The notes beneath the pieces were generated by a model. It ran no database searches, had not been told where the DNA came from, and saw only the letters and a program-made list of their open reading frames with translations. DNA of 25,677 bases from a virus: the IMG/VR virus record IMGVR_UViG_3300002052_000035, positions 1 through 25,677 of that record; one strand, written 5' to 3'. The translations under genes and the position numbers were made by a program. This document shows, piece after piece, positions 93-24,672 of the stretch (position 1 is the first letter of the stretch; each line of letters opens with the position of its first letter).

Positions 93-169
93 TAAAGGAA
101 ATGATAGAAAAATATCCCGGTAGGCCGCTAATTATCCATATGTATAATTCGAGGTATACAAATGATTAA
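2..169 (+). CDS. 3' end of an ORF: LVIVD repeat fragment fused to a short unrelated tail (partial)
   Basis: The frame is open from base 2 to a TAA at 167-169, and the 5' end is missing. The first 30 residues or so follow the LVIVD consensus (LEIIDISNPANPSHAG, then GGAGLDGA). The last 25 or so, beginning IKEMIEKYPGRPLIIH, do not resemble a propeller blade, where a strand ending in GNYAYV would be expected. If the molecule is circular, this completes the gene that starts at 24942 and gives a 270-residue protein. If not, it is a tail-gene fragment fused in frame to the C-terminus of another gene, much like 10133-10378. The stop overlaps the start of the next gene by 8 bases, which suggests translational coupling. 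Confidence 0.7.
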   Translation: MEIIDISNPANPSHAGRLNHSAGGAGLDGAIKEMIEKYPGRPLIIHMYNSRYTND

Positions 170-1707: not shown

Positions 1708-1726
1708 TTTAGTTGGGTGAAACAAA

Positions 1727-1918
1727 ATGAAGATTCAGCTTATCTCTAACACGGAACAAAATTTTCGTAAAAACTTTTCAGCCAAAGATATGCAGAACTT
1801 GAAAAAACTCGGCTATGATTTCGAAGAATTAATTCGATTGAATGAAAAAATTGATGACAATCTCTCGTGTGGTGAAATTAAAAATTTGCGTAAATTTTTG
1901 TTGTTGGAAAGCCATTAA
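1727..1918 (+). CDS. Small protein of unknown function
   Basis: A 63-residue, charged, probably helical protein (for example FSAKDMQNLKKLGYDFEELI). I do not recognise a family. It sits 19 bases after the methyltransferase stop, with only a weak purine stretch (GGGTGA) upstream. The stop TAA at 1916-1918 is followed at once by an in-frame TGA. After that the same frame stays open for 25 more codons, to a TGA that overlaps the next gene's ATG. That extension reads like protein (IRKLRGTIHDTIAAVEQ), so the gene may once have been longer or the two parts may be remnants. Confidence 0.5.
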   Translation: MKIQLISNTEQNFRKNFSAKDMQNLKKLGYDFEELIRLNEKIDDNLSCGEIKNLRKFLLLESH

Positions 1919-1995
1919 TGATATTCACTTATACGAAAACTCCGTGGTACTATACACGATACTATTGCGGCGGTTGAGCAGCGAAAGGAGAAGAA

Positions 1996-2232
1996 ATGAA
2001 TACAGTAATAGCATTTATCGCTATATTTGGTTTTTTGGGTTTTATAAGTCTTATAAGTGCAATACTTGCTGAAATATTTTGTCATTGGAAAAGTGAGCTA
2101 CCTGGGAAATTATTTTTATTTTTTTTATTGTTCTCGATATTATTTTTAGCGGGTATGGGAATAATTCTAGATTACGACGCGAAACATACAAAACAATGCA
2201 AACAACAAAATGGGAATTATAATTGTGAATAA
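1996..2232 (+). CDS. Small two-helix membrane protein
   Basis: A 78-residue protein with two strongly hydrophobic segments, about residues 4-28 (IAFIAIFGFLGFISLISAIL) and 39-61 (LFLFFLLFSILFLAGMGIIL). They are separated by a short loop containing Cys-His-Trp-Lys, and the tail is hydrophilic with cysteines. A very good ribosome binding site (AAGGAGAAG) lies just upstream. The family is not recognised. A holin-like or small inner-membrane partner of the glycan enzymes are possible roles, but nothing decides between them. The last 23 bases overlap the start of the following fusion gene. Confidence 0.65.
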   Translation: MNTVIAFIAIFGFLGFISLISAILAEIFCHWKSELPGKLFLFFLLFSILFLAGMGIILDYDAKHTKQCKQQNGNYNCE

Positions 2233-3769: not shown

Positions 3770-4264
3770 ATGTTTACACATGGAGAATTAATTCAAATAG
3801 CGAGCAAATGGCTCCAACAAAAATGTTCTATTATAATTACTGAGTTGGTCACTTATGCCGGAGAGATTCCTGATGTAATAGGTTTCAATCATTATCAATC
3901 CATTCTTATTGAATGTAAAACGACGAGAAAAGATTTTTTTGCTGATCAAAAAAAAGGAATCAGAAAAAATAATATTGGCATGGGTAATTATAAATATTAT
4001 CTGTGCCCCAAGGGACTGATACAACAAAATGAGATACATAATGATTATTGGGGATTGTTAGAAGTTTCGCCAAATAAAAAAGTGACAATAACTATGGTTC
4101 CATATATATGTAGTGATGATATTAAAAATCTTAAAATGGAACGTTCACTATTGGTAAGCGCAATAAGAAGGATAGGGCAACATTCCCCCAAAGGAATAGG
4201 AATAAAATGTTATCAACACGACAATAAAAGAAAAGCAGGCATAATGATAGAAAGAATATCGTGA
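3770..4264 (+). CDS. PD-(D/E)XK nuclease-like protein
   Basis: A 164-residue protein. The arrangement Glu25, PD at 34-35 (PDVIGF) and ECK at 48-50 (ILIECK) is the signature of the PD-(D/E)XK nuclease fold. It is followed by TTRKDFFADQKK and GNYKYYLCPKGLI. This combination of 'ECK-S/T-x-x-DF' with a 'YYL-x-P-x-GLI' strand is, as I recall, found in small nuclease-like proteins of phages and bacteria. Which DNA it would act on is unknown. The ATG follows the previous stop directly. The gene is out of place among glycan enzymes, so it may be a defence, anti-defence or DNA processing gene riding in the cassette. Confidence 0.65.
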   Translation: MFTHGELIQIASKWLQQKCSIIITELVTYAGEIPDVIGFNHYQSILIECKTTRKDFFADQKKGIRKNNIGMGNYKYYLCPKGLIQQNEIHNDYWGLLEVSPNKKVTITMVPYICSDDIKNLKMERSLLVSAIRRIGQHSPKGIGIKCYQHDNKRKAGIMIERIS

Positions 4265-4310
4265 GAATGGAAAACTACAGATAAAAATAACGAGGAGAGT
4301 GAGGAAAACA

Positions 4311-4445
4311 ATGAGTAACATACGAACGAAACCAACAACAGAAAAATATAGAAAAGGGTGGGAAAAAATCTTTGGGAAGAAAAAGCCGAAAGCGAGAAAG
4401 ATAATTTATATTGATACCGAAAAATTAACAACCACAAAATTATAG
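4311..4445 (+). CDS. Small basic protein of unknown function
   Basis: A 44-residue ORF rich in lysine and arginine (for example TEKYRKGWEKIFGKKKPKAR). A good purine ribosome binding site (GAGGAGAGTGAGG) lies 8-20 bases upstream. No family is recognised. Very small basic proteins of this kind are common in phage genomes and may bind nucleic acid. The gene sits alone in the otherwise empty gap between the nuclease-like gene and the cupin gene. Confidence 0.55.
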   Translation: MSNIRTKPTTEKYRKGWEKIFGKKKPKARKIIYIDTEKLTTTKL

Positions 4446-4466
4446 AATTTTGCAGTAGAGATTTGA

Positions 4467-4874
4467 ATGAAAAAAATACCAATTGTAAATGACATAAAGG
4501 AAGTATTAAAACCTCAATTTGACGACGAACAAGGCTCACTAAATGTGATTGAATTCAAATATTTACCGTTTAATCCGAAAAGAATTTTTTGGATCAATAA
4601 AGCAAATTGCCCTCGTGGGAATCATGCACATTATAAAACAAAACATATATATTTTTGTGTGCATGGAAAAATAAATATAACAATTACAGATGTTACCATT
4701 ACATCATTAAGCTATGAGCTTTCTAACGATTCCAATGGAATATATGTGCCAAATATGTTATGGAATAGTATTCAATTTTCTGCGGATTCTTCATTATTAG
4801 TTTTGGCGAATACTAATTATGATCCCAAGGATTACATTAATAGTTGGAGTATATTTTGCAGAATAAGAAAATAA
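4467..4874 (+). CDS. WxcM/FdtA-like cupin (possible dTDP-sugar 3,4-ketoisomerase)
   Basis: A 135-residue single-domain cupin. The stretch PRGNHAHYKTKH (49-60) matches the 'RG-x-HAH-x-x-x-x-x/H' active-site strand of the WxcM-like/FdtA/QdtA family. Those enzymes isomerise dTDP-4-keto-6-deoxyglucose to the 3-keto sugar during deoxy-amino-sugar synthesis. The C-terminal region, which ends in YDPKDYI, also matches the family's 'Y-x-x-x-DYI' end. The usual partner genes (dTDP-glucose synthase and dehydratase, PLP aminotransferase, acyltransferase) are not in the window, so the enzyme would have to use a host-made intermediate. The next gene begins inside its 3' end. Confidence 0.7.
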   Translation: MKKIPIVNDIKEVLKPQFDDEQGSLNVIEFKYLPFNPKRIFWINKANCPRGNHAHYKTKHIYFCVHGKINITITDVTITSLSYELSNDSNGIYVPNMLWNSIQFSADSSLLVLANTNYDPKDYINSWSIFCRIRK

Positions 4875-5521
4875 TACAACGAATCAAAGAATGCAGAATA
4901 CAATTAAGCAATATCTGCAATCTTTCAACTAGACATCTTGCGTGTCCGGCGTCAAAAGAAGAAAAAGAACAATATTTACCACTTAAAAACATCATGAATT
5001 GTATTATTCAACTTAGACAATTAGATTACAAGGGTGATTTAGGGTTTCATATTTATAATGAGCCATTATTAGACCCCAGGTTGTTATATATTCTTGACTT
5101 TACACGCCATGTGTTGCTTAATAAAATAATTATATGGTCAAACAAAACATTATATACCGATGAATTGGGCGAGGAAATAAAAAAGTTTGGCAATATACAT
5201 TTTGTTTTTTCGGACTATTTATTGCCCCACCATTTGGATAATCGGCTTACTATATACCGCGATTCTGCACATCCGATTATCAATAAACGGTGTCTGCAAC
5301 CATATTACCAACTTAACATCAATTATAATGGCGATGTAGTCTTGTGTTGTTATGATTGGAAATGGACAAAAACATATGGTAATATCAAAAGACAAAAATT
5401 AGAAGATATATTAATTTCTGAGAAGATGAATTGTGACTATAGAAACCTAAAACAAGGCGAGTTATTTAAGTTTTGCACTAATTGTACAGTAAACTTTGGA
5501 GATAATAATGCAGCATTATGA
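4856..5521 (+). CDS. Radical SAM/SPASM-like protein with an unusual cysteine motif
   Basis: About 221 residues. I chose TTG 4856 because GGAG lies 6 bases upstream; TTG 4844 is the alternative. The N-terminus (RIQLSNICNLSTRHLACPAS) aligns with the opening strand of radical SAM enzymes. However, instead of CxxxCxxC it shows Cys21-x8-Cys30, with another Cys at 13. The C-terminal half is a convincing SPASM-type region: NYNGDVVLCCYDW, GNIKRQKLEDIL, then FKFCTNC. These auxiliary cysteines normally hold a second iron-sulfur cluster. The substrate is unknown. It overlaps the cupin gene upstream and the methyltransferase gene downstream, so translation is probably coupled. Confidence 0.65.
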   Translation: MQNKKIIQRIKECRIQLSNICNLSTRHLACPASKEEKEQYLPLKNIMNCIIQLRQLDYKGDLGFHIYNEPLLDPRLLYILDFTRHVLLNKIIIWSNKTLYTDELGEEIKKFGNIHFVFSDYLLPHHLDNRLTIYRDSAHPIINKRCLQPYYQLNINYNGDVVLCCYDWKWTKTYGNIKRQKLEDILISEKMNCDYRNLKQGELFKFCTNCTVNFGDNNAAL

Positions 5522-6062
5522 TAATATAGATAGAACTGCGAGCTTAAAACGAATCGTGCCGGATTTATATGATTATAAAACGGTATTATATGTAGGCGCT
5601 CGACCAGATAGACACGATTATTTGGAAGATTTTCACAAAGCAAATTACAAAATTGATGTGATTGAAATATGGCATCCAAATGTAAAATGGTTAAGAGCGC
5701 TACCGTGGATTAATCGTGTTTATCATATCAACTTTAAAAAGTTTTTTGCTGAATATTATTTATATTATAGTCATTTGAAGTACGATATCATATTTCTTTG
5801 GCACGTTATTGAACACATTTACATGCCGGAAATAGAATATATTTTTACCAAGCGTTTATTTGAACAAGTGGCAAAAAAAATAATCGTCATAGGGTGCCCC
5901 TGGGGTGTATATCATCAGGGAGAGATGGGTGGAAATCCAGACGAGGCACATGTTAGTCATTTAGATTATCAAATTTTTGAGAAATACGGATACCAAGTTG
6001 AATGTTTGGGTAAACAGAATTATATAGGATCAAATATTACGGCGATAAAAAAAATAAAATGA
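5508..6062 (+). CDS. Methyltransferase-like protein (class I fold)
   Basis: 184 residues from ATG 5508, chosen because GGAG lies 6 bases upstream; an upstream TTG at 5496 is in frame but has no such signal. VLYVGARPDR fits a modified motif I, with an aromatic-Val-Gly-Ala core in place of the glycine-rich loop. DVIEI is the acidic strand 2. FLWHVIEHI matches the 'D/W-x-x-EH' strand-4 end of Methyltransf_11/23 enzymes. KKIIVIGCPWG is the strand-5 region where methyltransferases have a proline. A later part mentions Glu-Ala-His-Val-Ser-His, again typical of small SAM methyltransferases. The SAM-binding loop is less glycine-rich than usual, so activity is uncertain. Confidence 0.65.
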   Translation: MQHYDNIDRTASLKRIVPDLYDYKTVLYVGARPDRHDYLEDFHKANYKIDVIEIWHPNVKWLRALPWINRVYHINFKKFFAEYYLYYSHLKYDIIFLWHVIEHIYMPEIEYIFTKRLFEQVAKKIIVIGCPWGVYHQGEMGGNPDEAHVSHLDYQIFEKYGYQVECLGKQNYIGSNITAIKKIK

Positions 6063-6124
6063 AATATCAAAAAGTTATTCATCCAGGTACTATTCGACAT
6101 AAGTGTATGCTCATAAATGAATAA
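6059..6124 (+). CDS. Possible 21-codon linking ORF
   Basis: The ATG overlaps the preceding stop (ATGA), the reading runs for 21 codons (beginning MKYQKVIHPG), and the TAA lies just past the ATG at 6117. It therefore bridges two methyltransferase genes with overlaps on both sides. It may serve only to carry ribosomes across the gap, because the 6117 start has no clear ribosome binding site. It may also be the stub of a deleted gene. No family is recognised. Confidence 0.3.
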   Translation: MKYQKVIHPGTIRHKCMLINE

Positions 6125-6623
6125 AAAAATAATATATCCCTGGTTAACCAATGAGGCCATATGGTTTTTAGAATGGTATTTGTCGCAAAACTATGTAACA
6201 CATGTATTGGAATTTGGATCAGGAAATAATACTCTATTTTTTGATCAAGAAAAATTTAGTTTACAAATAATAACTATTGAAAATGATGGGCTGTATTACA
6301 ACAAAATTAAGGACAAACTTTCGCTTAGAGTAGATTTCCGTTGGTTGTCTCGCCCATATTATAATGTGTGTGATCGATTCCAAGATGAATATTTTAATTT
6401 GATATTAATTGATGGCCGTGACCGAGCAAAATGTATCGAAAAATCTATGCGAACATTGAAAAAAGGTGGTATATTAATGTTAGATAATTCTGAAAGATAT
6501 TATTACCAAGAAGCCATCAAATTGTTATCGGATTGGAAAGTAACAATTACACAGCAAAAAGATAATCCCTTGTGTGAACATAATTATCCCGATTGGGAAA
6601 CTTCTTGGTGGGAGAAACCATGA
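6117..6623 (+). CDS. Class I SAM-dependent methyltransferase
   Basis: A 168-residue protein. Motif I is HVLEFGSGNNTLFF (about residues 29-42), followed by an acidic strand 2 ending (IITIEND), FNLILIDGRDR as strand 4, and LKKGGILMLDNSERY as strand 5 with its loop. This is the full order of class I methyltransferase core motifs in a compact form with little extra sequence. The 'GSGxST/NT' type motif and 'DGRDR' strand resemble Methyltransf_24 and CmcI-like proteins. The substrate is unknown. It follows the small bridging ORF and overlaps the FkbM gene by four bases (ATGA). Confidence 0.78.
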   Translation: MNKKIIYPWLTNEAIWFLEWYLSQNYVTHVLEFGSGNNTLFFDQEKFSLQIITIENDGLYYNKIKDKLSLRVDFRWLSRPYYNVCDRFQDEYFNLILIDGRDRAKCIEKSMRTLKKGGILMLDNSERYYYQEAIKLLSDWKVTITQQKDNPLCEHNYPDWETSWWEKP

Positions 6624-7294
6624 ACAAACAAGAAATTAAAGAATTGATAAATACAGAAAATCCTACTATATTAGAAATAGGAGCACACGATGGATCTGAT
6701 ACCAATGATTTTTTACAAACTTTTAAATTTGGTTATTTTTATTGTTTTGAACCAGACCCACGATGTGTAAAAAAGCATAAAGTGAATGTTAATGATTCTC
6801 GATGTAAATTGTTCGAAGTAGCATTGTCAAATGAGAATTCCAAAGGACTATTATACATGTCTGGCGGTTGGCCTCCTGATTGGCCTGGTTCCGGCGATTG
6901 GGATTATTCTTCATCACTCAAAAAACCATTGAATCATTTAAAAATGCATCCTTGGTGTAAATTTGATAAAACTACAATTGTAAAAACAATAACATTAGAT
7001 CAATGGACAATGGAAAACGTCAAGGGTAAAATAATTGATTTTATATGGATGGATGTACAAGGAGCAGAAGGCGATGTAATTAAAGGAGGATTAAATACAT
7101 TGCGCTATAGAACTAAATATATATATACTGAATATGCGAATGATGAACAATATGAAGGGCAACTAAACCTAGAAGCCATTTTGAAATTATTGTCAAACTT
7201 TGTTTTATTGCGACAAATTGATAATAACGTATTATTAAAAAATTTAGGATTAGAAGATGTTCGAAAAGATAGATATTATAATTCCAACAAATAA
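6620..7294 (+). CDS. FkbM family methyltransferase
   Basis: 224 residues from ATG 6620 (GGGAG 5-9 bases upstream; an in-frame TTG at 6593 is less likely). TILEIGAHDGSDT (16-28) is the FkbM 'D/E-x-GA-x-xG' motif I. CFEPDP (42-47) is the post-I strand with its acidic residue. VKTITLDQW followed by IDFIWMDVQGAEGDVIKGG is the FkbM hallmark (usually 'iDfiKiDvEGaE-x-dvl-x-G'), here with Trp-Met and Gln in place of Lys-Ile and Glu. FkbM enzymes are SAM-dependent O-methyltransferases, often acting on sugars of surface glycans. Its 3' end overlaps the next gene by 38 bases. Confidence 0.88.
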   Translation: MNKQEIKELINTENPTILEIGAHDGSDTNDFLQTFKFGYFYCFEPDPRCVKKHKVNVNDSRCKLFEVALSNENSKGLLYMSGGWPPDWPGSGDWDYSSSLKKPLNHLKMHPWCKFDKTTIVKTITLDQWTMENVKGKIIDFIWMDVQGAEGDVIKGGLNTLRYRTKYIYTEYANDEQYEGQLNLEAILKLLSNFVLLRQIDNNVLLKNLGLEDVRKDRYYNSNK

Positions 7295-7922
7295 ACCAAA
7301 AAATAGATTAAAGAAATTTTTTAGGGAATTAACAGAATCGCTTGATCTATCAAAGTTTAGAATTATTTCAACTCATTTAGATACAAGCGCAGCAGTAAAC
7401 CGTAATTGGGGATTGCACCAAGCTACATCTGATGTTGTGATTATGATTGACGATGATATTAGTGGTTTTTATCCTGGTTGGGCTGAAGAGTTAATACAGC
7501 CATTATTACACCAAAATACTATTGTGATGATTTCTGCACGATTAATGCGATCTAAAACTAAACTTGGTGTAATGATGAATATTATCCCAGATATGACTAG
7601 GCATTACCAACATAAAACATTAATATACGGACAACAAAATCAAACGTATGTGGATGAATACGAAAGAAGATTAATACCAATCAAAGCTTTACCAAGTGCC
7701 TGTATTGCATTTAGAAAAACTGAAATCAGATTTGATTGTGCGTACCGGGGCGCTGGTTTCGAAGATACGGATTTTTGCATGCAACTAAATGAGAAATTTA
7801 CAAAAGCAATATATATGATCAATAACAATGTCAAATTAATCCATAAAAACGAAATGAAAAATCAATTAAATGGACAACTATTACATAACCAACAATATTA
7901 TTTACGAAAGTGGGGACTATAA
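7257..7922 (+). CDS. Family 2-type glycosyltransferase
   Basis: A 221-residue GT-A enzyme. The first strand (KIDIIIPTNKP) and AAVNRNWGL (45-53) match the family 2 opening and its 'RN-x-G' helix. VIMIDDDI (61-68) is the DxD metal site. GAGFEDTDFCMQL (about 163-175) is the family 2 'ED-x-D' region that holds the catalytic base and acceptor contacts. All key acidic residues are present, so the enzyme is probably active. The ATG has AGGA about 7 bases upstream. The stop overlaps the next start as TAATG. Confidence 0.85.
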   Translation: MFEKIDIIIPTNKPKNRLKKFFRELTESLDLSKFRIISTHLDTSAAVNRNWGLHQATSDVVIMIDDDISGFYPGWAEELIQPLLHQNTIVMISARLMRSKTKLGVMMNIIPDMTRHYQHKTLIYGQQNQTYVDEYERRLIPIKALPSACIAFRKTEIRFDCAYRGAGFEDTDFCMQLNEKFTKAIYMINNNVKLIHKNEMKNQLNGQLLHNQQYYLRKWGL

Positions 7923-8140
7923 TGGCTTTAAAGCAAAATGAAATATTAAATTTTATACATTCTGTTGAAGGCATATATAATAATTGTAATAGTATACATA
8001 CAGCAGTTCGCGGATTAAAAATGATTATTATTGAATTGATAAGAGAAAACAAAAAACTCGAAAATGATTTGAAATATCAAAAAAACCAAAATCCAACAGA
8101 GGACACTAATACCAATAATGAAAATAACGGCTCTGTGTAA
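7922..8140 (+). CDS. Small coiled-coil protein of unknown function
   Basis: 72 residues from ATG 7922, which overlaps the preceding stop (TAATG). The middle part (GLKMIIIELIRENKKLENDL) is a heptad-like amphipathic helix, and the C-terminal 20 residues are rich in Asn, Thr and Glu and probably disordered. I see no known domain. It may be a partner or spacer between two glycosyltransferases. Its last 23 bases overlap the next gene. Confidence 0.5.
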   Translation: MALKQNEILNFIHSVEGIYNNCNSIHTAVRGLKMIIIELIRENKKLENDLKYQKNQNPTEDTNTNNENNGSV

Positions 8141-8918
8141 AACTTATTCCTGTGATGAATTCATCGAGGCCGCAATCGAAAGTATATATGATTTTGTGGA
8201 TCACATTGTATTCGTGAATTCTGATATTGATTGGACTGGCAAATCTGGTATAAACAAAGTTAAATCAACAATATTACAATGGCAGAAACAAAACGATAAA
8301 CAAAAAAAGATTATTCATATTGATGCCAATGTATCTAATCAATGGAAACAGTGTAATATTGGATATCAATGGATTAAAGATAATCTTAAGCCAGATTGGA
8401 TAATGATATTTGATACAGACGAAGTTTGGGATTTTGAAAACATTGCAATAGCTAAAAATATTTTAGTTAAATCGACTGAATATAATGCGATAAGTGCTCA
8501 AATGCACACATATATCAAGTCTCCATTTTACAGAGTATCTCCCCCAGAATGGTGCAAACCCACTGTATTTATCAGGCCAATACACATAGCAATGCAAGGA
8601 ACCAGGGGTAACAAAGTGTCGCCACGATTATTTTGTGATGAACTATTCTTTCACCATTTCACTTATGTGCGTATGAATGAAAAAGATGTGTTTCGGAAAA
8701 TACAGACAACCTTGAGAGGAGATCGTGATGACGCGCCAAATGTTAAATTGACAAATATAAAACAATGGAAAAAAGAAAAATGGGATCAATTGCCGCGCGC
8801 ATACAATTTTCACACCACAAAATGTTATGAGAAGTCATGGCACAGAATTAAACAAATTTCTATCAGCGATTTGCCACAAACTTTAAGAAATAAAGCAATT
8901 GTTGAAAAATTTATGTAA
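8118..8918 (+). CDS. Family 2-type glycosyltransferase
   Basis: A 266-residue protein. MKITALCKTYSCDEFIEAAI followed by ESIYDFVDHIVFVNS is the family 2 N-terminal strand-helix-strand. FDTDEVW (98-104) is the DxD site, extended to D-x-D-E as in the genes at 162 and 10435. SPRLFCDELFFHHFTYVR is a 'H-x-H' type region also seen in the first glycosyltransferase of this window (YHYSYVF), so the two may be distant relatives. The C-terminal part is basic. Donor and acceptor are unknown. It is followed by the longest intergenic gap of the cassette. Confidence 0.78.
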   Translation: MKITALCKTYSCDEFIEAAIESIYDFVDHIVFVNSDIDWTGKSGINKVKSTILQWQKQNDKQKKIIHIDANVSNQWKQCNIGYQWIKDNLKPDWIMIFDTDEVWDFENIAIAKNILVKSTEYNAISAQMHTYIKSPFYRVSPPEWCKPTVFIRPIHIAMQGTRGNKVSPRLFCDELFFHHFTYVRMNEKDVFRKIQTTLRGDRDDAPNVKLTNIKQWKKEKWDQLPRAYNFHTTKCYEKSWHRIKQISISDLPQTLRNKAIVEKFM

Positions 8919-9071
8919 ATTATAGTATATGGCAGCTTGTGATGACATTATTATCAAATTCAAACATTATATAATTAATTTTTATTTTTTTTATGTTGTT
9001 GTAATAATATTATGGGTTCCGAATTACAAAAGGAAAAGTTTAGAGATTAATATATATTGGAGAGCAGAAAA
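8919..9071. other. AT-rich gap in the cassette
   Basis: This is the longest non-coding stretch of the cassette (153 bases). It holds a T-rich run near 8979-8992, but I find no stable GC hairpin before it and no convincing -35/-10 pair. It ends in the ribosome binding site (GGAGAG) of the next gene. It may be a boundary between two sub-cassettes. Confidence 0.4.
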
Positions 9072-9371
9072 GTGAACGTAAAACAAATAGTAACTGATTT
9101 TCTTGGTGAGGATTGGGCCGAACATCCTTGCGATATCACTATCAAGGAAATAGTTGAAAATTATCTTGAAGGATCTGATTATGATGGTTTATATTGTGAG
9201 GCATGTAGCTGTAAATTGAATGATATAATGCCATGTAACGGCATAAATCCATACTGTAGGCCGGGACACCTATTGAAGTGTAAAGGTGAAAAATGTCCAT
9301 ATGGGATATATAATGTAAATATTGGAGATTGTTTTTGTATAGGTTCCAAGGAAGAAGAAGCAAATGAATGA
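9072..9371 (+). CDS. Small cysteine-rich phage protein
   Basis: 99 residues from GTG 9072, chosen because GGAGAG lies about 8 bases upstream; TTG 9057 is the alternative. About eleven cysteines are packed into the second half: YCEACSCKLNDIMPC, then YCRPGHLLKCKGEKC and CFC. The order 'YDGLY - CxCxxxDxxPC - C-x-PG' matches, from memory, a small protein common in phages of many hosts, in which the cysteines probably bind metal. No function is established to my knowledge. It stands alone between two glycosyltransferase-type genes. Confidence 0.6.
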   Translation: MNVKQIVTDFLGEDWAEHPCDITIKEIVENYLEGSDYDGLYCEACSCKLNDIMPCNGINPYCRPGHLLKCKGEKCPYGIYNVNIGDCFCIGSKEEEANE

Positions 9372-9416
9372 AATTCACGGCAAAATAAAATGTAATAGGA
9401 CGTGGGGTTTGACATA

Positions 9417-10136
9417 ATGAATAATACTGCCTTATTGGTTAACACAGGGGATCAGTCTAATAAAATCTGGAAATATTGGTATAAATATTATATACAAAAC
9501 TGGTCTTGTTCTGGTTTTATTGATACTGTATTTTTGTCAGAAGAGATGAAATTAGATGATGTTTTGTGCCGAAAAACTGAAATTATTAATACAACAACTG
9601 GTAAGATTGATTGGGCATCTGGTTTAATTAACTATCTTTTGAAATGTCATTATCAATATATAATACTCGTTCATGAAGATTATTTTTTAACCGAATCTAC
9701 TTGGGCAAACATTGCCAAATATCTTATAGATTTTGTTCAGAAACATGATATTAAATTATTAAAATGTTGTGGTTGGTGGGCTGGGTATATAGACGAAAAC
9801 GCACCAATGGTAGAAGATGAATCATTGCCTTTGTTTGTTGGCGAAAAGGTTAAAAAGGTTATATGGAGATACAACAACGAATCACAATATCTTATATCTC
9901 ACCAAACATCAATATGGAGCAAAGATTTTTTGCTTAGCACACTGAAGGCCGGGGAGTCACCGTGGGAGCATGAGATAATCGGTACATTAAGACTCAGAGA
10001 ACGCAATATACCCATATATGCATATCGTGATAAATGTCCATTTGAGTATGGCGAAACAGTTCAACAAAACAAAGTGCGCCCGGGTTGTGGTCATTATTTT
10101 GATGGTGAATTTAATGATGGAGATTCTATATTATGA
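9417..10136 (+). CDS. Glycosyltransferase-like protein (GT-A type, family uncertain)
   Basis: 239 residues from ATG 9417; GTG 9402 in frame is possible. IILVHEDYFLTE (about 79-90) sits where GT-A enzymes have their DxD strand, here as H-E-D. SHQTSIWSKDFLLSTL followed by ESPWEHEIIGTLRLRE resembles a phage and viral group in which a 'q-x-x-lW' strand is followed by 'E-x-PW-x-x-E'. I recall that combination from putative glycosyltransferases, but I cannot confirm the family. There is no membrane segment. The stop overlaps the next start (ATGA). Confidence 0.5.
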   Translation: MNNTALLVNTGDQSNKIWKYWYKYYIQNWSCSGFIDTVFLSEEMKLDDVLCRKTEIINTTTGKIDWASGLINYLLKCHYQYIILVHEDYFLTESTWANIAKYLIDFVQKHDIKLLKCCGWWAGYIDENAPMVEDESLPLFVGEKVKKVIWRYNNESQYLISHQTSIWSKDFLLSTLKAGESPWEHEIIGTLRLRERNIPIYAYRDKCPFEYGETVQQNKVRPGCGHYFDGEFNDGDSIL

Positions 10137-10378
10137 TTGACGCATTATTGTTAGCACTGATTGGCGGCTTTGTATATTGGTTGTGTTGTCGTGCGGTTAA
10201 GTATTATGACAATCATAAAAAGGATCAAAGCACAACCAACGTTGCCATGCCCCAATTATCAGAAGATGAATTTGACAGACTTAACGCAAAAGCGAAAGAA
10301 CTTGGATCAACGACTGTGTTTACGGCAAAACAAGTCGGAGATGCATTCCTCGAAATACGCGGATTGTATCTGAGATAG
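10133..10378 (+). CDS. Small membrane protein ending in a copied piece of the tape measure protein
   Basis: An 81-residue protein made of two parts. Residues 1-30 hold one membrane segment (DALLLALIGGFVYWLCC) followed by a basic stretch. Residues about 44-78 are nearly identical to residues 112-148 of the tape measure protein encoded at 14418 (EFDRLNAKAKELGSTTVFTA and onward). The reading frame is kept through the copy. The ATG overlaps the preceding stop (ATGA). The first part alone looks like a phage inner-membrane peptide of unknown role. The fusion is probably a recombination product, and whether it still works is unclear. Confidence 0.6.
   Translation: MIDALLLALIGGFVYWLCCRAVKYYDNHKKDQSTTNVAMPQLSEDEFDRLNAKAKELGSTTVFTAKQVGDAFLEIRGLYLR
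10264..10365 (+). repeat. 102-bp copy of an internal part of the tape measure gene
   Basis: Compared with 14753-14860, this stretch differs by a single substitution (T at 10335, C at 14824) and a 6-base in-frame deletion (14846-14851 missing). Sequence on both sides is unrelated. The difference from the source argues against a simple assembly duplication. The copy lies near the right border of the glycan cassette. Confidence 0.95.
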
Positions 10379-10434
10379 ACAATCCAAAACATTGCGGATT
10401 AATTACCAATAGGAGGACAGAAAGCTGTGAATAA

Positions 10435-11559
10435 ATGGAGGATCGCAAAACACTTGCTCTTAATATTTTAGCAAGTCATAATGAAGCCTATGAATTAGAT
10501 AGATGTCTTAAGTCTATAATTATAAAAAATTTATTTGATGAAATAGTTATAGTTCCCACCACAAAAGATCCAGAAGTCTGGAAAGTTGCTCGCCAATATA
10601 CAAAAAAAGTATATCATTTTGAGTGGATAGACGATTTTTCTGCTGCCCGCAATTTTGCCCGCAAGAAAACAAAATCTGATTATATATTTTGGTGCGATGC
10701 CGATGATGTCGGCTCCGGATTGTTTGCAGAACGTGCTATCAAAATGAAGGAATATGTAATCAATAGTAATTACGATCTATATTTTATTCCTTATTATCTA
10801 TATGTAAATGATTATTGCGAAGGTATAGCAAGCAGGGAACGCATATATCGTAGAACTAAGTTTTTCTGGGATAAAACAATCCATGAACAGCTTAAAACGA
10901 GAAAAAAAATCACTTATGCGAATTTTAATGGCATATCTATTGAACACCGACCCACCAAAGATCCACGAGTCGGGGTATTGCGTAACTTACGATATCTCAA
11001 AAAGGAATATGATAATGGCACAATGAGCAAAGATATGCTATATTATTTTGCACGAGATCTACACCTGGAAAAGAAGTATGACAAATCTATACAATTATTC
11101 GAGCAAATAATTAATAACCAATGTAATAATCCAGACGTGTTGTGCCATTCTGCTTATTGTGTATCACAGTATTATACTTATAACGATGATGGTACAATCA
11201 AAAAAGATACTATGTTCCAGGGCGAGACATTTGCCCGTATTGCGTTATCATTTTCAGACCTATATGCTGAAGCGTATGTAATACTCGGAGATATATATTA
11301 CGCAAAAGGTGATATCAATAACGCAATAAAATTTCTAAAAATAGCAATCTCAAAAGACCCCCATAAAGGCAACGGAGTCAAAGAGTTACAGTTTTACGAA
11401 GAAAAACCGGCCGAAAAATTATGCTATATATTTTGTCAATTAGGAGAATTTGAACAGGCAATATGGTATAATCGCCTTGCACTTAAACACAATAAATCAA
11501 AAAGAAACCTAGATATTAGGGCCAGCATTATAAAGGCTTTAAGTGAACAAAAAATATAA
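10435..11559 (+). CDS. Glycosyltransferase (family 2) with TPR-like C-terminus
   Basis: A 374-residue protein. LALNILASHNEAYELDRCLKS (8-28) is the family 2 first strand and helix. WIDDFSAARNFARKK (64-78) and IFWCDADDV (84-92) are the 'W-x-x-DFS-x-ARN' and DxD motifs typical of bacterial glycosyltransferases followed by TPR units. From about residue 195 on, helical pairs of TPR character appear (YDKSIQLFEQIINN; AEAYVILGDIYYAKGDINNA). They probably bind a protein partner or acceptor, which would fit protein glycosylation. A strong AGGAGG at 10412-10417 is 17 bases from this ATG and better placed for a GTG at 10427 that opens only 14 codons in another frame. It is the last gene before the tail module. 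Confidence 0.85.
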   Translation: MEDRKTLALNILASHNEAYELDRCLKSIIIKNLFDEIVIVPTTKDPEVWKVARQYTKKVYHFEWIDDFSAARNFARKKTKSDYIFWCDADDVGSGLFAERAIKMKEYVINSNYDLYFIPYYLYVNDYCEGIASRERIYRRTKFFWDKTIHEQLKTRKKITYANFNGISIEHRPTKDPRVGVLRNLRYLKKEYDNGTMSKDMLYYFARDLHLEKKYDKSIQLFEQIINNQCNNPDVLCHSAYCVSQYYTYNDDGTIKKDTMFQGETFARIALSFSDLYAEAYVILGDIYYAKGDINNAIKFLKIAISKDPHKGNGVKELQFYEEKPAEKLCYIFCQLGEFEQAIWYNRLALKHNKSKRNLDIRASIIKALSEQKI

Positions 11560-11561
11560 TA

Positions 11562-11589
11562 TTGAAAATAAACAAAAGAAATATATATT
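11562..11589 (+). promoter_or_regulatory. Possible promoter of the tail module
   Basis: TTGAAA at 11562-11567 and TATATT at 11584-11589 are separated by 16 bases, close to the sigma-70 consensus. They lie in the 68-base gap between the cassette and the first tail-module gene. The region is very AT-rich, so chance matches are likely. The position at a clear functional border is the main support. Confidence 0.35.
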
Positions 11590-11627
11590 ATATATTGAAT
11601 TTTAAATTATAAAATATGGGGTAAAAT

Positions 11628-11957
11628 ATGCCAACAACCACAGATAGACGAATATCACCTGCGATGAGTTTTACTGCGGTCAATCTTTCAGATACATCCG
11701 AAGTGCGTTTAATCGATTTATCGGCATTATCTATAGATGATGGCATGCTTAATACCAATGAACGTGGATTATATTATTGTCGTGGCTTTCATTGTAATAC
11801 TGATGGAACTCTTGTAATTGAATCCGTCGGTAACATATCTGGACACACGGTATCATTATCTGTTAAGGATGGAATGTATTATCCTTATGGGGTTAAGAAA
11901 TTCATGCAAACAGGTAGTACGGGAATTTCAAACGGTCAAATTATAGCGGTAAGGTAA
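11628..11957 (+). CDS. Small structural protein, possibly spike-base/decoration type
   Basis: A 109-residue protein predicted to be mostly beta. The pattern of a Leu/Asp-rich opening, 'RGLYYCRGFHCNTDGTLVIE' in the middle, a hydrophobic 'VSLSVKDGMYYPYGVKKF' strand and an end of the type 'TGST-x-I-x-x-GxIIAV' resembles short phage virion proteins that sit at or near the head-tail joint. One example is the spike-base family described from a gene transfer agent. The match is from memory and weak. It is the first gene of the tail module, which suits a connector or decoration role. Confidence 0.4.
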   Translation: MPTTTDRRISPAMSFTAVNLSDTSEVRLIDLSALSIDDGMLNTNERGLYYCRGFHCNTDGTLVIESVGNISGHTVSLSVKDGMYYPYGVKKFMQTGSTGISNGQIIAVR

Positions 11958-11958
11958 T

Positions 11959-12510
11959 ATGTCAATACCATCTATCAACCCAATCAGATCACAAATACGC
12001 GATGCAGTATTATATGCACTGCGTAATCGTATAATTGGTGGTGGTATAGCTATAAGATATAGTTCTGAAGGCAATACGACTGTAAGCGATGCCGGATATT
12101 ATCACACAATAAGACACGCATTTGACCCGCCTCGAACATTTGAACAGATGCAAGAGTTTCCTTGTGCTAATGTATATATTGATGCCGAATCATGCGAGAA
12201 TGCAGCTAATGTACAAATAGATCAGAACCAAGCAGCATTGCACAACAGTTTTACTTTGGTTATGGAAATTTGCATTAACGAAACTAATAATCCTGCATTA
12301 ATTCAAGACCAAATATTAGCAGATATACAAAAATATTTCGGAATTAATTATTTTATACCTGATAGCGCTGGGAATGCAACGTGTTTCAATTGTTATTATT
12401 TGTCAAGCGACCCGTGGGGAACTGATAGAACAAGGCCGAATTGTGGTATAACAGTGAATTATATAGTATGGTATAGACAGAAATTAACCGATCCAACACA
12501 AAAAATATAA
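11959..12510 (+). CDS. Tail terminator/completion-like protein
   Basis: A 183-residue protein directly upstream of the tail tube gene, the usual place of the tail terminator in siphophages. The first part (IRSQIRDAVLYALRNRI) is an amphipathic helix. The middle has 'CANVYIDAES' followed by 'SFTLVMEICINE', a strand pattern seen in gpU/Tcp-like proteins, where a ring caps the finished tail. The end (GITVNYIVWYRQK) is a 'Y-x-v-x-YR' strand, as in minor tail and terminator proteins. The name rests on position and strand pattern rather than on a sure sequence match. Confidence 0.55.
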   Translation: MSIPSINPIRSQIRDAVLYALRNRIIGGGIAIRYSSEGNTTVSDAGYYHTIRHAFDPPRTFEQMQEFPCANVYIDAESCENAANVQIDQNQAALHNSFTLVMEICINETNNPALIQDQILADIQKYFGINYFIPDSAGNATCFNCYYLSSDPWGTDRTRPNCGITVNYIVWYRQKLTDPTQKI

Positions 12511-12521
12511 GTGGGGAAACA

Positions 12522-13487
12522 ATGGGATTTAATAAAACAAAACGAACGCTCGGAATGAAAATCGAAAGCACTCCATATACAGCCGAGACATTGGCAGCAA
12601 CAGATTATAATATTGAAGCTTTCAACATTGAATATACGCCCGAAATAGCTGTCTTAGAAAGAAAAATAGCGAGAGGTGATTTGTCTAGAGATGTGTCTAT
12701 TACTGGAAAAAGGCAAGTAACTATTACATTTTCAATACATGCTTATACATCCAGCACACTAAATTCTCCTCCAAATTACTTTAAATGTCTTCAAGCTTGT
12801 GGCATGTTTCAAACTATACACGGCTCCACTGGAGTGTCTTTGGTACCTCATGCGAGCTATACAAACGTTCCGGCAACAATTGAAGTTGTCGAAAAGGACG
12901 AGGGCACAAGTCCTAGTCAGGTGGTAATCAAAGCACATGGTTGTATGGGAAATGTAAAAATACCATTAGGTAATGTTGGGGAACCATTACGTTATGATTT
13001 TGAATATAAGGGGGTATTAACTTCAATTACAGATCGTGCTTATGGAAGCATATTGACTCCAACTGGTATGACATCTCAACAGCCAGAGGCAGTGCTTGCT
13101 TGTGGAATCACTCTTTTTGGTGAAGGACAGCAGCTTAACACAATTACAATTGATCTTGGTAATGTAGTTGAAAACTATACTGATCCAACAAAAGACCAAG
13201 GCTATGAAGGCGCTCGCGTTGTTGATCGGAATCCGAACATTGCGCTCGATCCAGATCTTGAATTAATTGCAACACAGGGAGATTATGCAAGGTGGACAGG
13301 TAATACAACAGGCATATTTTCTATGCAAATTGGAGACAATATGGCAATTAGTGCACCAGCCGCACAGCTTACAAATGCATATCAACCAGGTGAGCGTGAA
13401 GGGCACGTAGTAAATAATAAGACTCTTGAACTTAAGCGAAGTTCAGGAAATGATGAGTTGAAAATTTTACAAGGTTCAGAGTCTTAA
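12522..13487 (+). CDS. Major tail tube protein-like
   Basis: A 321-residue, beta-rich protein. The N-terminus MKIESTPYTAETLAATDYNI matches the opening of many phage tail tube proteins ('k-e-s-t-y-g-t-d-x-x-p-t-d-y'). RDVSITGKRQVTITFSI is the tube subunit beta-sheet. PLRYDFEYKGVLTSITD and the closing VVNNKTLELKRS fit the second barrel. About 320 residues is normal for a two-sheet tube protein. GGGG lies 7 bases before the ATG. It is followed by a strong hairpin, often found after highly expressed tube genes. In the virion it would stack into the tail tube around the tape measure. Confidence 0.7.
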   Translation: MGFNKTKRTLGMKIESTPYTAETLAATDYNIEAFNIEYTPEIAVLERKIARGDLSRDVSITGKRQVTITFSIHAYTSSTLNSPPNYFKCLQACGMFQTIHGSTGVSLVPHASYTNVPATIEVVEKDEGTSPSQVVIKAHGCMGNVKIPLGNVGEPLRYDFEYKGVLTSITDRAYGSILTPTGMTSQQPEAVLACGITLFGEGQQLNTITIDLGNVVENYTDPTKDQGYEGARVVDRNPNIALDPDLELIATQGDYARWTGNTTGIFSMQIGDNMAISAPAAQLTNAYQPGEREGHVVNNKTLELKRSSGNDELKILQGSES

Positions 13488-13503
13488 TTTTTTAATAAAT
13501 AAA

Positions 13504-13558
13504 GGGCGAGGTTTAAGTCGGGTTACACGTCCTCCTTTCCCGCGCCTCGCCATTTTTA
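13504..13558 (+). terminator. Hairpin with T-tract after the tail tube gene
   Basis: GGCGAGG (13505-13511) pairs perfectly with CCTCGCC (13545-13551). An inner stem CGGG (13519-13522) / CCCG (13539-13542) and the run ATTTTT follow the layout of an intrinsic terminator. The 33-base loop is longer than usual, which suggests attenuation or regulation as well as termination. It is by far the most GC-rich structure in the window. Confidence 0.6.
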
Positions 13559-13572
13559 TACCAAAGGAGGAT
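13529..13572 (+). promoter_or_regulatory. Ribosome binding site able to pair with upstream anti-SD-like stretch
   Basis: CCTCCTTT (13531-13538), inside the hairpin loop, is the exact complement of AAAGGAGG (13563-13570), the ribosome binding site before the chaperone gene. With a further A-T and a G-U pair the helix is 10 base pairs (13529-13538 with 13563-13572). Because one arm lies inside the terminator loop, both helices together would form an H-type pseudoknot. This could hide the ribosome binding site and lower chaperone synthesis after the abundant tube protein. The pairing is seen in the sequence; the control is inferred. Confidence 0.5.
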
Positions 13573-13575
13573 TTA

Positions 13576-13590
13576 ATGGAGGATATATGA
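13576..13590 (+). CDS. Four-codon leader peptide (M-E-D-I)
   Basis: An ATG with the perfect AAAGGAGG at 5-base spacing opens four codons and stops at TGA, overlapping the chaperone start at 13587 (ATGA). The GGAGG within this leader (13578-13582) is the binding site for the chaperone gene itself. Ribosomes ending the leader would be placed to restart on the main gene, so the leader may couple the two or pass on the control by the upstream RNA structure. It is too short to judge by coding potential. Confidence 0.35.
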   Translation: MEDI

Positions 13591-14081
13591 AAATAAAAGA
13601 TGTTGTATTGACAGAAGAAATGAAGGTTAAATTAAAAAATGCTGGAGCGTTAGGTATTCAAATTGATTCTAATTTTTTTTATGTGCCGGAAATATATCGT
13701 GAAAAAAATAAAGATAACGAATTTATAATACCAAAAGAATGTTGGCCCGTATTTACTCTTCGTGGACTTAATGGCATCGAATCAACAAAATTAGAAGATG
13801 AGATGACGGGTGGTATTGTATATACGGAAGATTCAAAACCGTCGATCAATATACAATCTGGACATATAAAAATAGAAATATGCAGACGCGGTATTATAGC
13901 TTGGAAAAATTTTTATGACATAAAAGGAAATGAAATACCAAAACCCGAAAAAGACGTAAGCACAGGAGGTGTTACAACAATGTCTTTGAAATACATATCT
14001 CCTAAGTTGTTAACTGAATTATCGAATGCAATAACGGAACAGAGTTATCTTACAGAAGAGGAATTATTGGGTTTAGAATAG
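13587..14081 (+). CDS. Tail assembly chaperone, short form (gpG-like)
   Basis: A 164-residue acidic protein just upstream of the tape measure gene, the invariant place of tail assembly chaperones. It begins MKIKDVVLTEEMKVKLKNAG and ends YLTEEELLGLE. The middle has a compact beta region (FFYVPEIYREK; FTLRGLNGIES), not an enzyme. In lambda-like phages the short form is made in large excess and its C-terminus is extended by a -1 shift in a few percent of cases. The same arrangement is present here (slippery site at 14069-14075). The protein binds the tape measure and guides tube subunits, and is absent from the finished virion. Confidence 0.8.
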   Translation: MKIKDVVLTEEMKVKLKNAGALGIQIDSNFFYVPEIYREKNKDNEFIIPKECWPVFTLRGLNGIESTKLEDEMTGGIVYTEDSKPSINIQSGHIKIEICRRGIIAWKNFYDIKGNEIPKPEKDVSTGGVTTMSLKYISPKLLTELSNAITEQSYLTEEELLGLE

Positions 14082-14428
14082 CAGCCAGGTTCAGGGCTGG
14101 ATTTTGGGGGAAGATTAAATATCAATGTACATCATGTAACAATAACCAAAATTATAAATCCGCATGGGGCTGCATAAAGAAAAGTAAAATGGCCGAACCT
14201 ACTTTTGCAGAAAAAATTAATGGAATAGAATATAAATATTGGAATTGTCCAGTGAAATTTATCCCAGACAGTATTTATGGTTTTTTGAAAATTTATGATT
14301 ATTATAAAACATTTCCAGGGGCGAAAATTTCAAGCTACGACAATGTTTCTGCGAGATTTCTCAAAGCGACACAATATTATAATGTACAATATTCGGAGGC
14401 GATGGATGAAATGATAGATGGCAAGTGA
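13587..14428 (+). CDS. Tail assembly chaperone, -1 frameshifted long form (gpGT-like)
   Basis: After GGT-TTA at 14070-14075 the ribosome can slip back one base and read AGA-ATA-GCA onward. That frame stays open without a stop to TGA 14426-14428 and gives a 280-residue protein (163 residues of the short form plus 117). The added part begins RIAARFRAGFWGK, then has CTSC and a later WGC and YWNCPVKFIP. It continues into the sequence that could start at ATG 14189, but that ATG has no ribosome binding site, so expression by frameshift is more likely than a separate gene. The extension ends inside the tape measure start, as in other siphophages. Confidence 0.8.
14069..14099 (+). promoter_or_regulatory. 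Programmed -1 frameshift signal GGGTTTA plus hairpin
   Basis: G-GGT-TTA fits the X-XXY-YYZ rule in the chaperone frame (codons TTG GGT TTA). Six bases downstream CAGCC (14082-14086) pairs with GGCTG (14095-14099) around an 8-base loop and includes the zero-frame stop TAG just before it. Slippery site, spacing and hairpin all agree with known phage chaperone frameshifts. Only two codons separate the slippery site from the zero-frame stop, which is usual. Confidence 0.85.
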
Positions 14429-17213
14429 AGTGTTGGCCGTAGAAGCCAGATTAAAAGATTATATATCAAATAATCTAGATACAATCAATAACAAATTAAA
14501 CGAATTTTCCCAAAAGGGGAGAAATAGTTTTAATAAAGTCTCCAAATCTAGCTCATTTCTCAGTAGAGCATTTTCAGGAACTAAAGATTCTCTAATTAAT
14601 TTTGCAAAACAATTCGGCCCCGCTGCTGCTGCCGTTACTATCTTAACTTCGACATTATTAAAAATCAAAAATACTATTAATTTTGTGCAGGAAGTTACGA
14701 TTGATTTTGAAAAAACAATGTCAACTGTAAAAGCGATATTGGTTCCAACCGCAGATGAATTTGACAGACTTAACGCAAAAGCGAAAGAACTTGGATCAAC
14801 GACTGTGTTTACGGCAAAACAAGCCGGAGATGCATTCCTCGAAATGGGGAAACGCGGATTTAAAGTAACGCAAACTCTTGATGCTGTTGAGGGAGTCCTT
14901 GACTTAGCTGCTGCCGCACAAATTAGTCTTTCCGAGGCCGCATCTGCGACGGTAGCGACACTCAATCAATTTGGCCTTGCTGCAAGCGAATCGACAAGAG
15001 TTGCCGATGTAATGACAGCAGCCTTCAGCAAATCCGGTTTAAATATGTTTAACTTTACAGAGGCAATGAAGTTTGTTGGGCCAATAGCTGGACAAGTAAA
15101 TGTTTCTCTAGAGCAAACAACAGGGCTTCTTGGTGTATTGGCCGACAGAGAAATCAAGGGATCTCTTGCTGCAACTGGTTTGCGAACAATATTTTTAGAA
15201 TTGGCTAATAGCAATTCGAAAGTTAATGAAATGTTAAGGCAAAATGGAGTATATACAGATGATGTAATAAAAAAGCTTGAAGCTTTAAGCAAGATGAATC
15301 TTACTGTTACCGATACAACGGAATATTTTTCTGTGCGCGCGACTGCAACAGCGCAGGTAATACTTAATAATATAGGAGCAGCTCAAAACTTAACAGGAGC
15401 GTTAAAAGACGTCGATAAATACTCAAAAACAGTGGCAAATACAATGCTTGATAATGTTGCTGGCGCCACTACGCTACTTAAATCTGCCCAGGAGGGGCTT
15501 GCGCTTGCTATAGGAGAAACGTTTAAAGAAGCGAAAGTTGAAAGATTGCGAGTGTATACTAAAATAATTAACAAAGCCAGAGATTATATTATACAGCATA
15601 AAGACAAATTACAAGCGCTTGCAAATGTAGCCCAAAAAACATTTATGTCACTTATAAAATTTGGGAAATATTTATGCGATATGTTTAAAAGCGATTTCGC
15701 AGATCTTGCGGAATCCGTATTGACATTAATTAAAGTTATATTTGGATATGTAAAAGATTTTTTTTCAACATTTAAGGAGCCGATAGTTGCAGCTTTAAAA
15801 TTTATACGCGATGCAATTAAAACAATATTACAAGTTGTTAATTATTTTGCAAAAACGATAACGGCCCTTTTCGGTCTTGTTAAAACAGGATTATTGACAC
15901 TTGTAGAATATTTTTTTAGGGCTGTTGAAGGAATAGGTAAAGCTATCAATTGGATATCAAAAAAATTAAAAGGCAAAGAAGTTTTTGACTTATCAGGAAT
16001 ACAGGAAAAAATTGAAAAATTAAAAGCATCAGCACAGGAATCAGCAGATAAAATATATATCGCATTAAGTGGCAGTAAAGCCGTATCGGCTTTAGAAATA
16101 AATGTTGACAAAGCAAAAAAAATGATAAAAGAAGTCTCTTCACTACCTATACTACCACCTATACCACCAACAATTCCAACTGCTGCTGTTACTCCTGCCC
16201 CTGTCGTTTCTCCGGAAGAGGAAATTAAAATATTAGAAGAAAAGCTGGCTGCCAACAAATTCTATCAAGACTTAATTATCCAAAATATGCAAGCAGGCAT
16301 TGTAAAAGAAAAAGCTATTGCAAAATTAAAAAGAGAAGAAGATTATGCGCAGGCACAACAATGGCATGACAAAAAAATTATTGATAATAAAAGACTTGGT
16401 GAATTACGCATAGAAATAAAGCAACAATATGAGGATAAAATTACAGAAATAGAAAAAAGTGGAATAGAAGAGCACATGGGAATGCGTATAAAATCATTTG
16501 AAAAATGGGTAGGACTTGGGAACACATTGACAAATCAATTAATGGGGTTTTTGAGCACACGTCGTAGAAACGATATTGAAGACAAAAGAGAAGAAATAGA
16601 AAGGTGGCACAAGGCTGAAACCGAAAAGATTAAATCATCTGAAAACACTGAGGATGCTAAAAAAAAATTATTAGAAAGAGTCGAAACAGAAAAACAAGCA
16701 ATGCTTAAAAAAGCAAACGAAGAAAACAAAAAACGTGCTATTGCAGAAAAGGCATTAATGATTGCGCAAGCAACCGCAGCAACGGCACTTGGTGTAACAA
16801 CAGCTTTGTCTTCATGGACATCTCCTGTGTCGAAACGTATTGCAGAAGCAGCAATAATTGGAACGGCAGGTGCTCTACAGATAGCCACAATTGCCGCACA
16901 GCGAATGCAACATGGCGGTATTGTCGGGGGAGCTACTTATACGGGTGACAAAATTCCAATAATGGCAAATTCCGGTGAAATGATGCTCAATCGAGAGCAG
17001 CAGGCCAACCTCTTCAATATGGTTAAGGGCGGTGGGAACACTACCAATAATACATCTGCGCTTAATCTTACAATTAACATACCAACAGGCACACAATTAG
17101 ACAGCAATGCAGTTGATCAAATTACAGATTCAATGGAAAAACTTAACGAAACATTATTGCAGGCCAATGAAAACGGATATCTTGAGACATTCAAATCAAG
17201 TGTAGGATTATAA
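14418..17213 (+). CDS. Tail tape measure protein (TP901 type)
   Basis: A 931-residue protein. Residues about 90-300 are the conserved TP901-type core: FDRLNAKAKELGSTTVFTA, FLEMGKRGFKV, LNQFGLAASESTRVADVM, IAGQVNVSLEQTTGLLGVLA. Several hydrophobic helices follow near 430-515 (VIFGYVKDFF; ALFGLVKTGLLTLVEYFF), then a proline-rich hinge near 575-600 and a long charged coiled coil. The end MQHGGIVGG with GDKIPIMANSGEMMLNREQQ is a standard tape measure C-terminus. At about 1.5 angstrom per residue the tail would be near 140 nm (inference). The protein sets tail length and is ejected with the DNA. The start overlaps the chaperone extension by 11 bases. A short copy of residues 112-148 lies at 10264-10365. 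Confidence 0.95.
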   Translation: MASEVLAVEARLKDYISNNLDTINNKLNEFSQKGRNSFNKVSKSSSFLSRAFSGTKDSLINFAKQFGPAAAAVTILTSTLLKIKNTINFVQEVTIDFEKTMSTVKAILVPTADEFDRLNAKAKELGSTTVFTAKQAGDAFLEMGKRGFKVTQTLDAVEGVLDLAAAAQISLSEAASATVATLNQFGLAASESTRVADVMTAAFSKSGLNMFNFTEAMKFVGPIAGQVNVSLEQTTGLLGVLADREIKGSLAATGLRTIFLELANSNSKVNEMLRQNGVYTDDVIKKLEALSKMNLTVTDTTEYFSVRATATAQVILNNIGAAQNLTGALKDVDKYSKTVANTMLDNVAGATTLLKSAQEGLALAIGETFKEAKVERLRVYTKIINKARDYIIQHKDKLQALANVAQKTFMSLIKFGKYLCDMFKSDFADLAESVLTLIKVIFGYVKDFFSTFKEPIVAALKFIRDAIKTILQVVNYFAKTITALFGLVKTGLLTLVEYFFRAVEGIGKAINWISKKLKGKEVFDLSGIQEKIEKLKASAQESADKIYIALSGSKAVSALEINVDKAKKMIKEVSSLPILPPIPPTIPTAAVTPAPVVSPEEEIKILEEKLAANKFYQDLIIQNMQAGIVKEKAIAKLKREEDYAQAQQWHDKKIIDNKRLGELRIEIKQQYEDKITEIEKSGIEEHMGMRIKSFEKWVGLGNTLTNQLMGFLSTRRRNDIEDKREEIERWHKAETEKIKSSENTEDAKKKLLERVETEKQAMLKKANEENKKRAIAEKALMIAQATAATALGVTTALSSWTSPVSKRIAEAAIIGTAGALQIATIAAQRMQHGGIVGGATYTGDKIPIMANSGEMMLNREQQANLFNMVKGGGNTTNNTSALNLTINIPTGTQLDSNAVDQITDSMEKLNETLLQANENGYLETFKSSVGL
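14753..14860 (+). repeat. Tape measure segment copied at 10264-10365
   Basis: This is the intact version of the repeat: it keeps the six bases (GGGGAA, 14846-14851) absent from the other copy and continues as normal tape measure coding sequence on both sides, so it is the likely source. It encodes a well conserved helix of the tape measure core. Confidence 0.95.
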
Positions 17214-19111: not shown

Positions 19112-19113
19112 TT

Positions 19114-22407: not shown

Positions 22408-22415
22408 GGGGTACA

Positions 22416-24649: not shown

Positions 24650-24672
24650 CATATATAAAATAAGGGGTTTAT

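Follow-up and report, generated by a model that had tools for sequence, protein, structure and literature searches.

A tape measure gene fragment in a small membrane-protein gene and further self-derived patches in a sediment phage

Introduction

How does a piece of a phage's own tape measure gene come to form, in the same reading frame, the end of a small accessory membrane-protein gene located a few kilobases away? This question is raised by positions 10264–10365 of a 25,677-nucleotide viral sequence (IMG/VR record IMGVR_UViG_3300002052_000035), which was analysed at its full length and which we refer to as the window. A sequence-only reading of this DNA had offered three possible origins for the copied piece, namely a scar of illegitimate recombination, a homology patch used for cassette exchange, and an RNA decoy for something that targets the tape measure transcript. 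The origin of many small phage genes is an open question, and the present case, though limited to one lineage and two records, is one in which donors, junctions and a polymorphic example can be named. We conclude, with a probability of roughly two in three, that the copied piece (hereafter patch E) is a recent self-derived insertion and one of a series in a ~57-kb sediment phage, brought about by recurrent illegitimate recombination into accessory genes.

Results

Patch E (10264–10365, + strand) consists of copied tape measure codons that form, in frame, the C-terminus of an 81-residue protein encoded at 10133–10378 on the same (+) strand, the start of which overlaps the stop of the upstream gene. 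This protein comprises a hydrophobic N-terminus (residues ~3–20, judged by eye from the sequence), a basic and polar stretch, the tape-measure-derived part, and a final LYLR. Upon alignment with the tape measure gene at 14753–14860, patch E showed one C/T difference and one loss of 6 nucleotides: an exact run of 71 bases, the longest between the two (10264–10334 = 14753–14823), is followed by the single T/C difference, 21 identical bases, the absence of the tape measure GGGGAA, and then ACGCGGATT. These positions and differences, as well as the codon phase, which is identical in patch E and its source, confirm what had been read from the sequence initially. A 146-base query matched the window record in exactly two places, 10255–10400 and 14753–14860 (the second with E = 8e-44), and patch E and its source form the sole repeat of at least 20 nucleotides in the window when the repeats of the LVIVD-repeat genes and the 92-base ends are excluded. 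The near-identical copy is bounded on both sides by unrelated sequence, and the 81-residue protein obtained a weak PHROGs score as a tape measure (E 2e-5). The sequence-only reading had taken the differences as a sign of a copy old enough to have diverged; a single substitution in 102 bases instead indicates that patch E is recent.

Patch E is known from one record of one assembly. An exact 38-mer from it gave 0 matches in viral_contigs, the exact start of the 81-residue gene gave 0 matches in genome_contigs, and a nucleotide search of the patch E region in phages returned nothing. The N-terminus alone, used as a query, yielded four insignificant records (E 0.6 to 3), and PADLOC returned nothing for the 81-residue protein. 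Because no form of the 81-residue gene without the fused part was found among the relatives searched, we infer, rather than observe, that the piece was inserted into this gene and not merely fused to it.

The source of patch E (14753–14860, +) lies inside the conserved domain of a tape measure protein of 931 residues (14418–17213, +; PF10145, E 1e-31; PHROG 1533, E 6.5e-61). As the position of the codons lost from patch E is occupied by residues in each of the tape measure relatives checked (21/21), we take the tape measure to be the donor, with the probable ancestral state, and patch E to be the derived copy. The substituted position is uninformative on direction, with A in 10, S in 6 and V in 5 of the 21 relatives.

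The window starts and ends with the same 92 bases (1–92 = 25586–25677), which suggests a circle, but its sequence yielded no identifiable terminase, portal or capsid gene. Exactly the same 92 bases end a second contig, L030 (IMGVR_UViG_3300002052_000357), which carries terminase, portal and capsid genes (portal and capsid being matched via the near-identical contig L003), and begin a third, L040 (IMGVR_UViG_3300002052_000243), which encodes a primase-helicase-like protein and shares a 94-base overlap with the beginning of L030. Window, L030 and L040 close to a map of 57,112 bp, and the tetranucleotide profiles of the three contigs correlate at 0.96–0.98 with one another, compared to at most 0.90 when set against five other phage sequences. 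This neighbourhood is supported by the sister contig L003 (IMGVR_UViG_3300002053_000617), which passes across the join, continuing from L030-type sequence into window positions 1–1635 at 99.9% identity. Furthermore, the LVIVD-repeat gene at the tail end of the window (24942–25677, +) runs on in frame into L040, where its natural end is found (L040 1–328), and not into window base 1. Most likely, the terminal repeat of the window is a shared k-mer node inside an LVIVD repeat and does not mark where a circular genome closes. Rather than a complete 25.7-kb circle, the window is one of three contigs and covers ~45% of a ~57.1-kb phage map. This is a warning that a contig with a terminal repeat may represent less than half a genome and owe its apparent closure to a repeat within a protein gene. 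In the relevant text of PMC4411801, the SMTZ site 1 assembly of White Oak River estuary sediment carries the record number 3300002052, and the shared end k-mer suggests that the window comes from this same assembly.

Between the head and tail modules, window positions 162–11559 hold an 11-kb cassette of glycosyltransferase-, methyltransferase- and sulfotransferase-like genes, all named by eye except for the gene at 10435–11559 (PHROG 13126). A 20-nucleotide AT-rich exact match between this cassette (8014–8033) and a glycosyltransferase-like gene of L030 (15297–15316) is probably due to chance. L030 and L003 differ by 9 SNPs in 10,045 bases (99.91% identity). The major capsid gene of L003 (4411–5427) carries a nonsense change relative to L030 that shortens the product from 439 to 338 residues, which could stem from prophage decay, from a stop that is suppressed, or from an error.

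Across this map, the same phage holds four further self-derived patches of ~50–147 nucleotides, all direct and in frame. Three of these, B', C' and D1, sit within a small region that lies upstream of the first gene of the window, in L030 as well as in L003. Patch B' derives from 17972–18041 (+; 70 nt, 100% identity) and patch C' from 22808–22862 (+; 55 nt, 100% identity), and the junctions of both are identical in L030 and L003, that is, in two records. D1 likewise starts at the same base in the two contigs, while its constituent LVIVD repeats differ: D1 of L030 (16365–16503) consists of 25239–25288 (+), the source of its first 50 nucleotides, joined to the last repeat (25586 onward), whereas D1 of L003 (10791–10935) follows the gene from 25533 onward (25533–25677, +; 147 nt with one mismatch, the last 2 nt lying on L040). 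This use of different repeats suggests that the repeats of the tail LVIVD gene recombine with one another. The end of D1 occupies window positions 1–94 (+) and is followed by KEMIEKYPGRPLIIHMYNSRYTND and a stop. The fourth, patch F (L030 2087–2146), is a 60-nucleotide copy of 8852–8911 with one mismatch, which was found in one record and is located in the repeat-rich spacer of a DUF6745 protein. When it was removed from this protein, BLASTP scores increased from 69.3 to 74.7 and from 49.7 to 58.5 bits against two GD102 pieces and from 59.7 to 64.7 bits against a Nostoc homologue, both homologues being distant and one alignment lying within repeats. Since the removal raised the scores against both homologues tried, patch F is probably an insertion, with 8852–8911 as its donor.

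The lengths of E (102 nt), F (60 nt) and D1 of L003 (147 nt) are divisible by three; those of B' (70) and C' (55) as aligned are not multiples of three, their true ends being uncertain by at least one base. With random frames, the chance that four separate cases (E, C', D1 and F) are all in frame is about 1 in 81 on one strand, a figure that is rough because the open reading frames were chosen for being open. The in-frame cases are few (these four and B' in L003), and the choice of reading frames favours open ones. For a joined, "patch-free" form of the L030/L003 reading frame, of 97 residues, the phage search gave 21 records, none of them significant (best E 0.4).

A longer patch connects this zone with the locus of patch E. 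Patch A' of L003 derives from 10042–10256 (+; 215 nt, one mismatch) and contains the end of the upstream gene together with approximately the first 41 codons of the 81-residue protein; its source ends 8 nucleotides before patch E starts in the window. In L003, the copied N-terminus is followed by ~20 other codons and then, in frame, by the LVIVD fragment B', yielding a protein of 87 residues. Patch A' is polymorphic between two strains, as it is present in L003 and absent from L030, which is 284 nucleotides shorter there. One membrane N-terminus is accordingly found with two pieces of the phage's own tail genes, a tape measure piece in the window and an LVIVD repeat in L003. The idea that the small protein had this piece as a conserved domain of its own does not hold up, given that the only other locus found for this N-terminus has the LVIVD fragment instead. 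A 62-base piece starting where A' ends had no match outside L003 except that its last 33 bases also occur in L030, and a 34-nucleotide pattern taken from the part of the L003 insertion that lacks matches was seen nowhere but in L003.

The two fusions of one N-terminus reflect either coincidence, a breakpoint hotspot or a module. A bolder reading, which we regard as doubtful, is that an active process in this lineage repeatedly copies ~18–70-codon pieces of the phage's own, mostly structural genes, in sense and in frame, into accessory genes, and that the 81-residue protein is a module in which such pieces replace one another as the cytoplasmic part. If true, new small proteins would be built from the phage's own tail parts.

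Such patches were not found in the other phage DNA that we scanned. While the repeat search (blastn, at least 45 nt at 90% identity or more) recovered E, F, B', C' and D1 in the 57 kb of this phage, with one further row for the shared 94-base node, it showed no dispersed repeats in 26 other viral loci (344 kb), of which 2/26 had a tandem repeat with a 120-bp offset; these loci are partly non-independent, with several near-identical tape measure loci among them, and are fragments of at most 21 kb, in which pairs further apart would be missed. Complete phages likewise had no dispersed repeats (none in 6/6; 231 kb), in a scan that is free of the fragment-size limit but leaves out pairs closer than 1 kb and covers few genomes. 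In viral_contigs, the upstream gene matched the sister contig only, the downstream glycosyltransferase gave three distant matches at 28% and no near-identical relative, and for the major tail-tube candidate (12522–13487) a single 53% relative turned up, on a contig of 4.2 kb. Searching genome_contigs with the capsid protein returned 100 stretches, none of which was confirmed. Among the papers listed by literature searches, none dealt, judged by title and start of abstract, with self-copied fragments in phages.

The phage encodes a Cas4/PD-(D/E)XK-type exonuclease, an enzyme type frequently associated with phage recombination systems, and an AAA protein of PHROG 1499, while each of the annealing recombinase families RecT, ERF and Rad52 was absent from the records searched (0/4 each). 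A 293-residue protein encoded next to the Cas4-type exonuclease (L040 1439–2320) has no family match and few relatives, namely in Hydrogenobaculum phage 1 and one Manatee Spring phage, and is only by its position a candidate annealing protein. L040 also carries a lone IS607-type serine recombinase gene (5099–5716), beside which no tnpB was noticed by eye. In IS607-type mobilisation, each piece that is moved carries an identical dinucleotide core at its two ends. The ends of E, B', C', A' and F share no dinucleotide, and only those of D1 in L003 do (by eye); lacking a shared core at the patch ends, an IS607-type mechanism was dropped.

Discussion

We propose that illegitimate or very-short-homology recombination copied ~108 nucleotides of the phage's own tape measure gene into the gene of a small accessory membrane protein, with the donor frame kept and 6 nucleotides lost. 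The process may have been break repair or template switching, in which breaks in accessory DNA are filled with short copies of phage genome sequence; selection would then retain those insertions that leave the recipient readable. The suggestion of a recombination scar is supported, and is extended from one site to four more self-derived patches and the polymorphic 215-nucleotide patch. That A', B', C' and D1 lie in collinear order is not accounted for by random insertion.

Among the alternatives, an assembly chimera would place patch E in no real genome, with a short-read assembler having joined unrelated pieces via shared k-mers. Record 3300002052 comes from a metagenome short-read assembly, for which PMC4411801 names IDBA-UD and reads of ~129 bp for the SMTZ site 1 sample; the 92-base end repeat of the window is itself a graph effect, and patch E occurs in one record only. 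We nevertheless consider this origin unlikely. A substitution and a 6-nucleotide loss with the frame kept argue against a plain duplicated read path, in line with the sequence-only view that patch E is no assembly copy, the longest exact run of 71 nucleotides is shorter than a read, and a second record shows the similar patches B' and C' with unchanged junctions.

Only slightly less improbable than the explanations below is a decayed large duplication, in which the 15-kb stretch 10042–25677 was duplicated and then deleted down to short remnants. This would explain better than random patches why A', B', C' and D1 follow each other in L003 in the order of their sources, and all patches are indeed direct repeats. 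We give it a low probability, however, as the gaps between the remnants (tens to ~400 nucleotides) have no match to the source region, the remnants are still 99–100% identical, and both E and F lie outside the A'–D1 zone.

A decoy role for the fused piece is very improbable on the present evidence. In such a scenario, a membrane-anchored piece of the phage's own tail protein would hinder infection by a further phage of this type (superinfection exclusion), and the occurrence of one N-terminus with a tape measure piece in the window or an LVIVD repeat in L003, as well as the description in PMC3952083 of tape measure proteins as a target of exclusion lipoproteins, is compatible with it. Yet, the charge pattern after the hydrophobic part suggests, by eye, a cytoplasmic tail, the 6-nucleotide loss removes conserved positions, and the other patches sit in unrelated proteins. 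The RNA decoy of the sequence-only reading found no evidence and is not supported.

Similarly small is the probability that the copy serves as a recombination site for swapping accessory genes. Repeats do flank accessory genes, and A' together with its source would, in an L003-type genome, flank the glycosyltransferase cassette. For patch E itself, this proposal is not supported: recombination with the tape measure would delete 10366–14752 and with it several tail genes, and the viral_contigs scans showed no rearranged relative at E. A diversity-generating retroelement or a mobile palindromic element, suggested by a near-identical template and copy within a few kilobases and by the in-frame insertions of Rickettsia palindromic elements (described in PMC10969869), can practically be set aside, given that a reverse transcriptase (PF00078) is absent in 4/4 records, the single substitution is C/T and not at A, no terminal inverted repeats were seen by eye at the patch borders, and the folding of patch E is not unusual (z -1.57; the z-scores of the five patches being -1.57, 0.54, -0.96, -0.18 and, for the LVIVD-derived D1, -2.31, with no palindrome found).

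The self-derived insertion that we favour bears a partial resemblance to several known systems. Templated insertions by microhomology-mediated template switching, a subject of papers on eukaryotes, also consist of short genome copies, several of which are joined in one place; they differ in that no polymerase or microhomology signature is established in this phage, and the literature matches listed contained no case in phages. Rickettsia palindromic elements, according to the account in PMC10969869, likewise are ~150-nucleotide in-frame insertions in protein genes, but belong to palindromic families, while here varied pieces of the phage's own genes are found without a palindrome. Ltp-type superinfection exclusion lipoproteins, as presented in PMC3952083, share with the 81-residue protein the combination of a small envelope protein with a link to the tape measure; Ltp, however, binds the tape measure and is not a copy of it, and the 81-residue protein has no lipobox by eye. 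Closest is phage mosaicism, for which PMC3945230 attributes abrupt junctions in phage genomes to illegitimate or relaxed homologous recombination. The abrupt junctions and the suspected phage recombination machinery are shared, whereas the mosaics described there swap segments between phages and here the phage's own genes donate pieces of ~50–215 nucleotides. Overall, the patch series belongs to phage mosaicism, as an unusual variant made of repeated, in-frame, self-derived patches.
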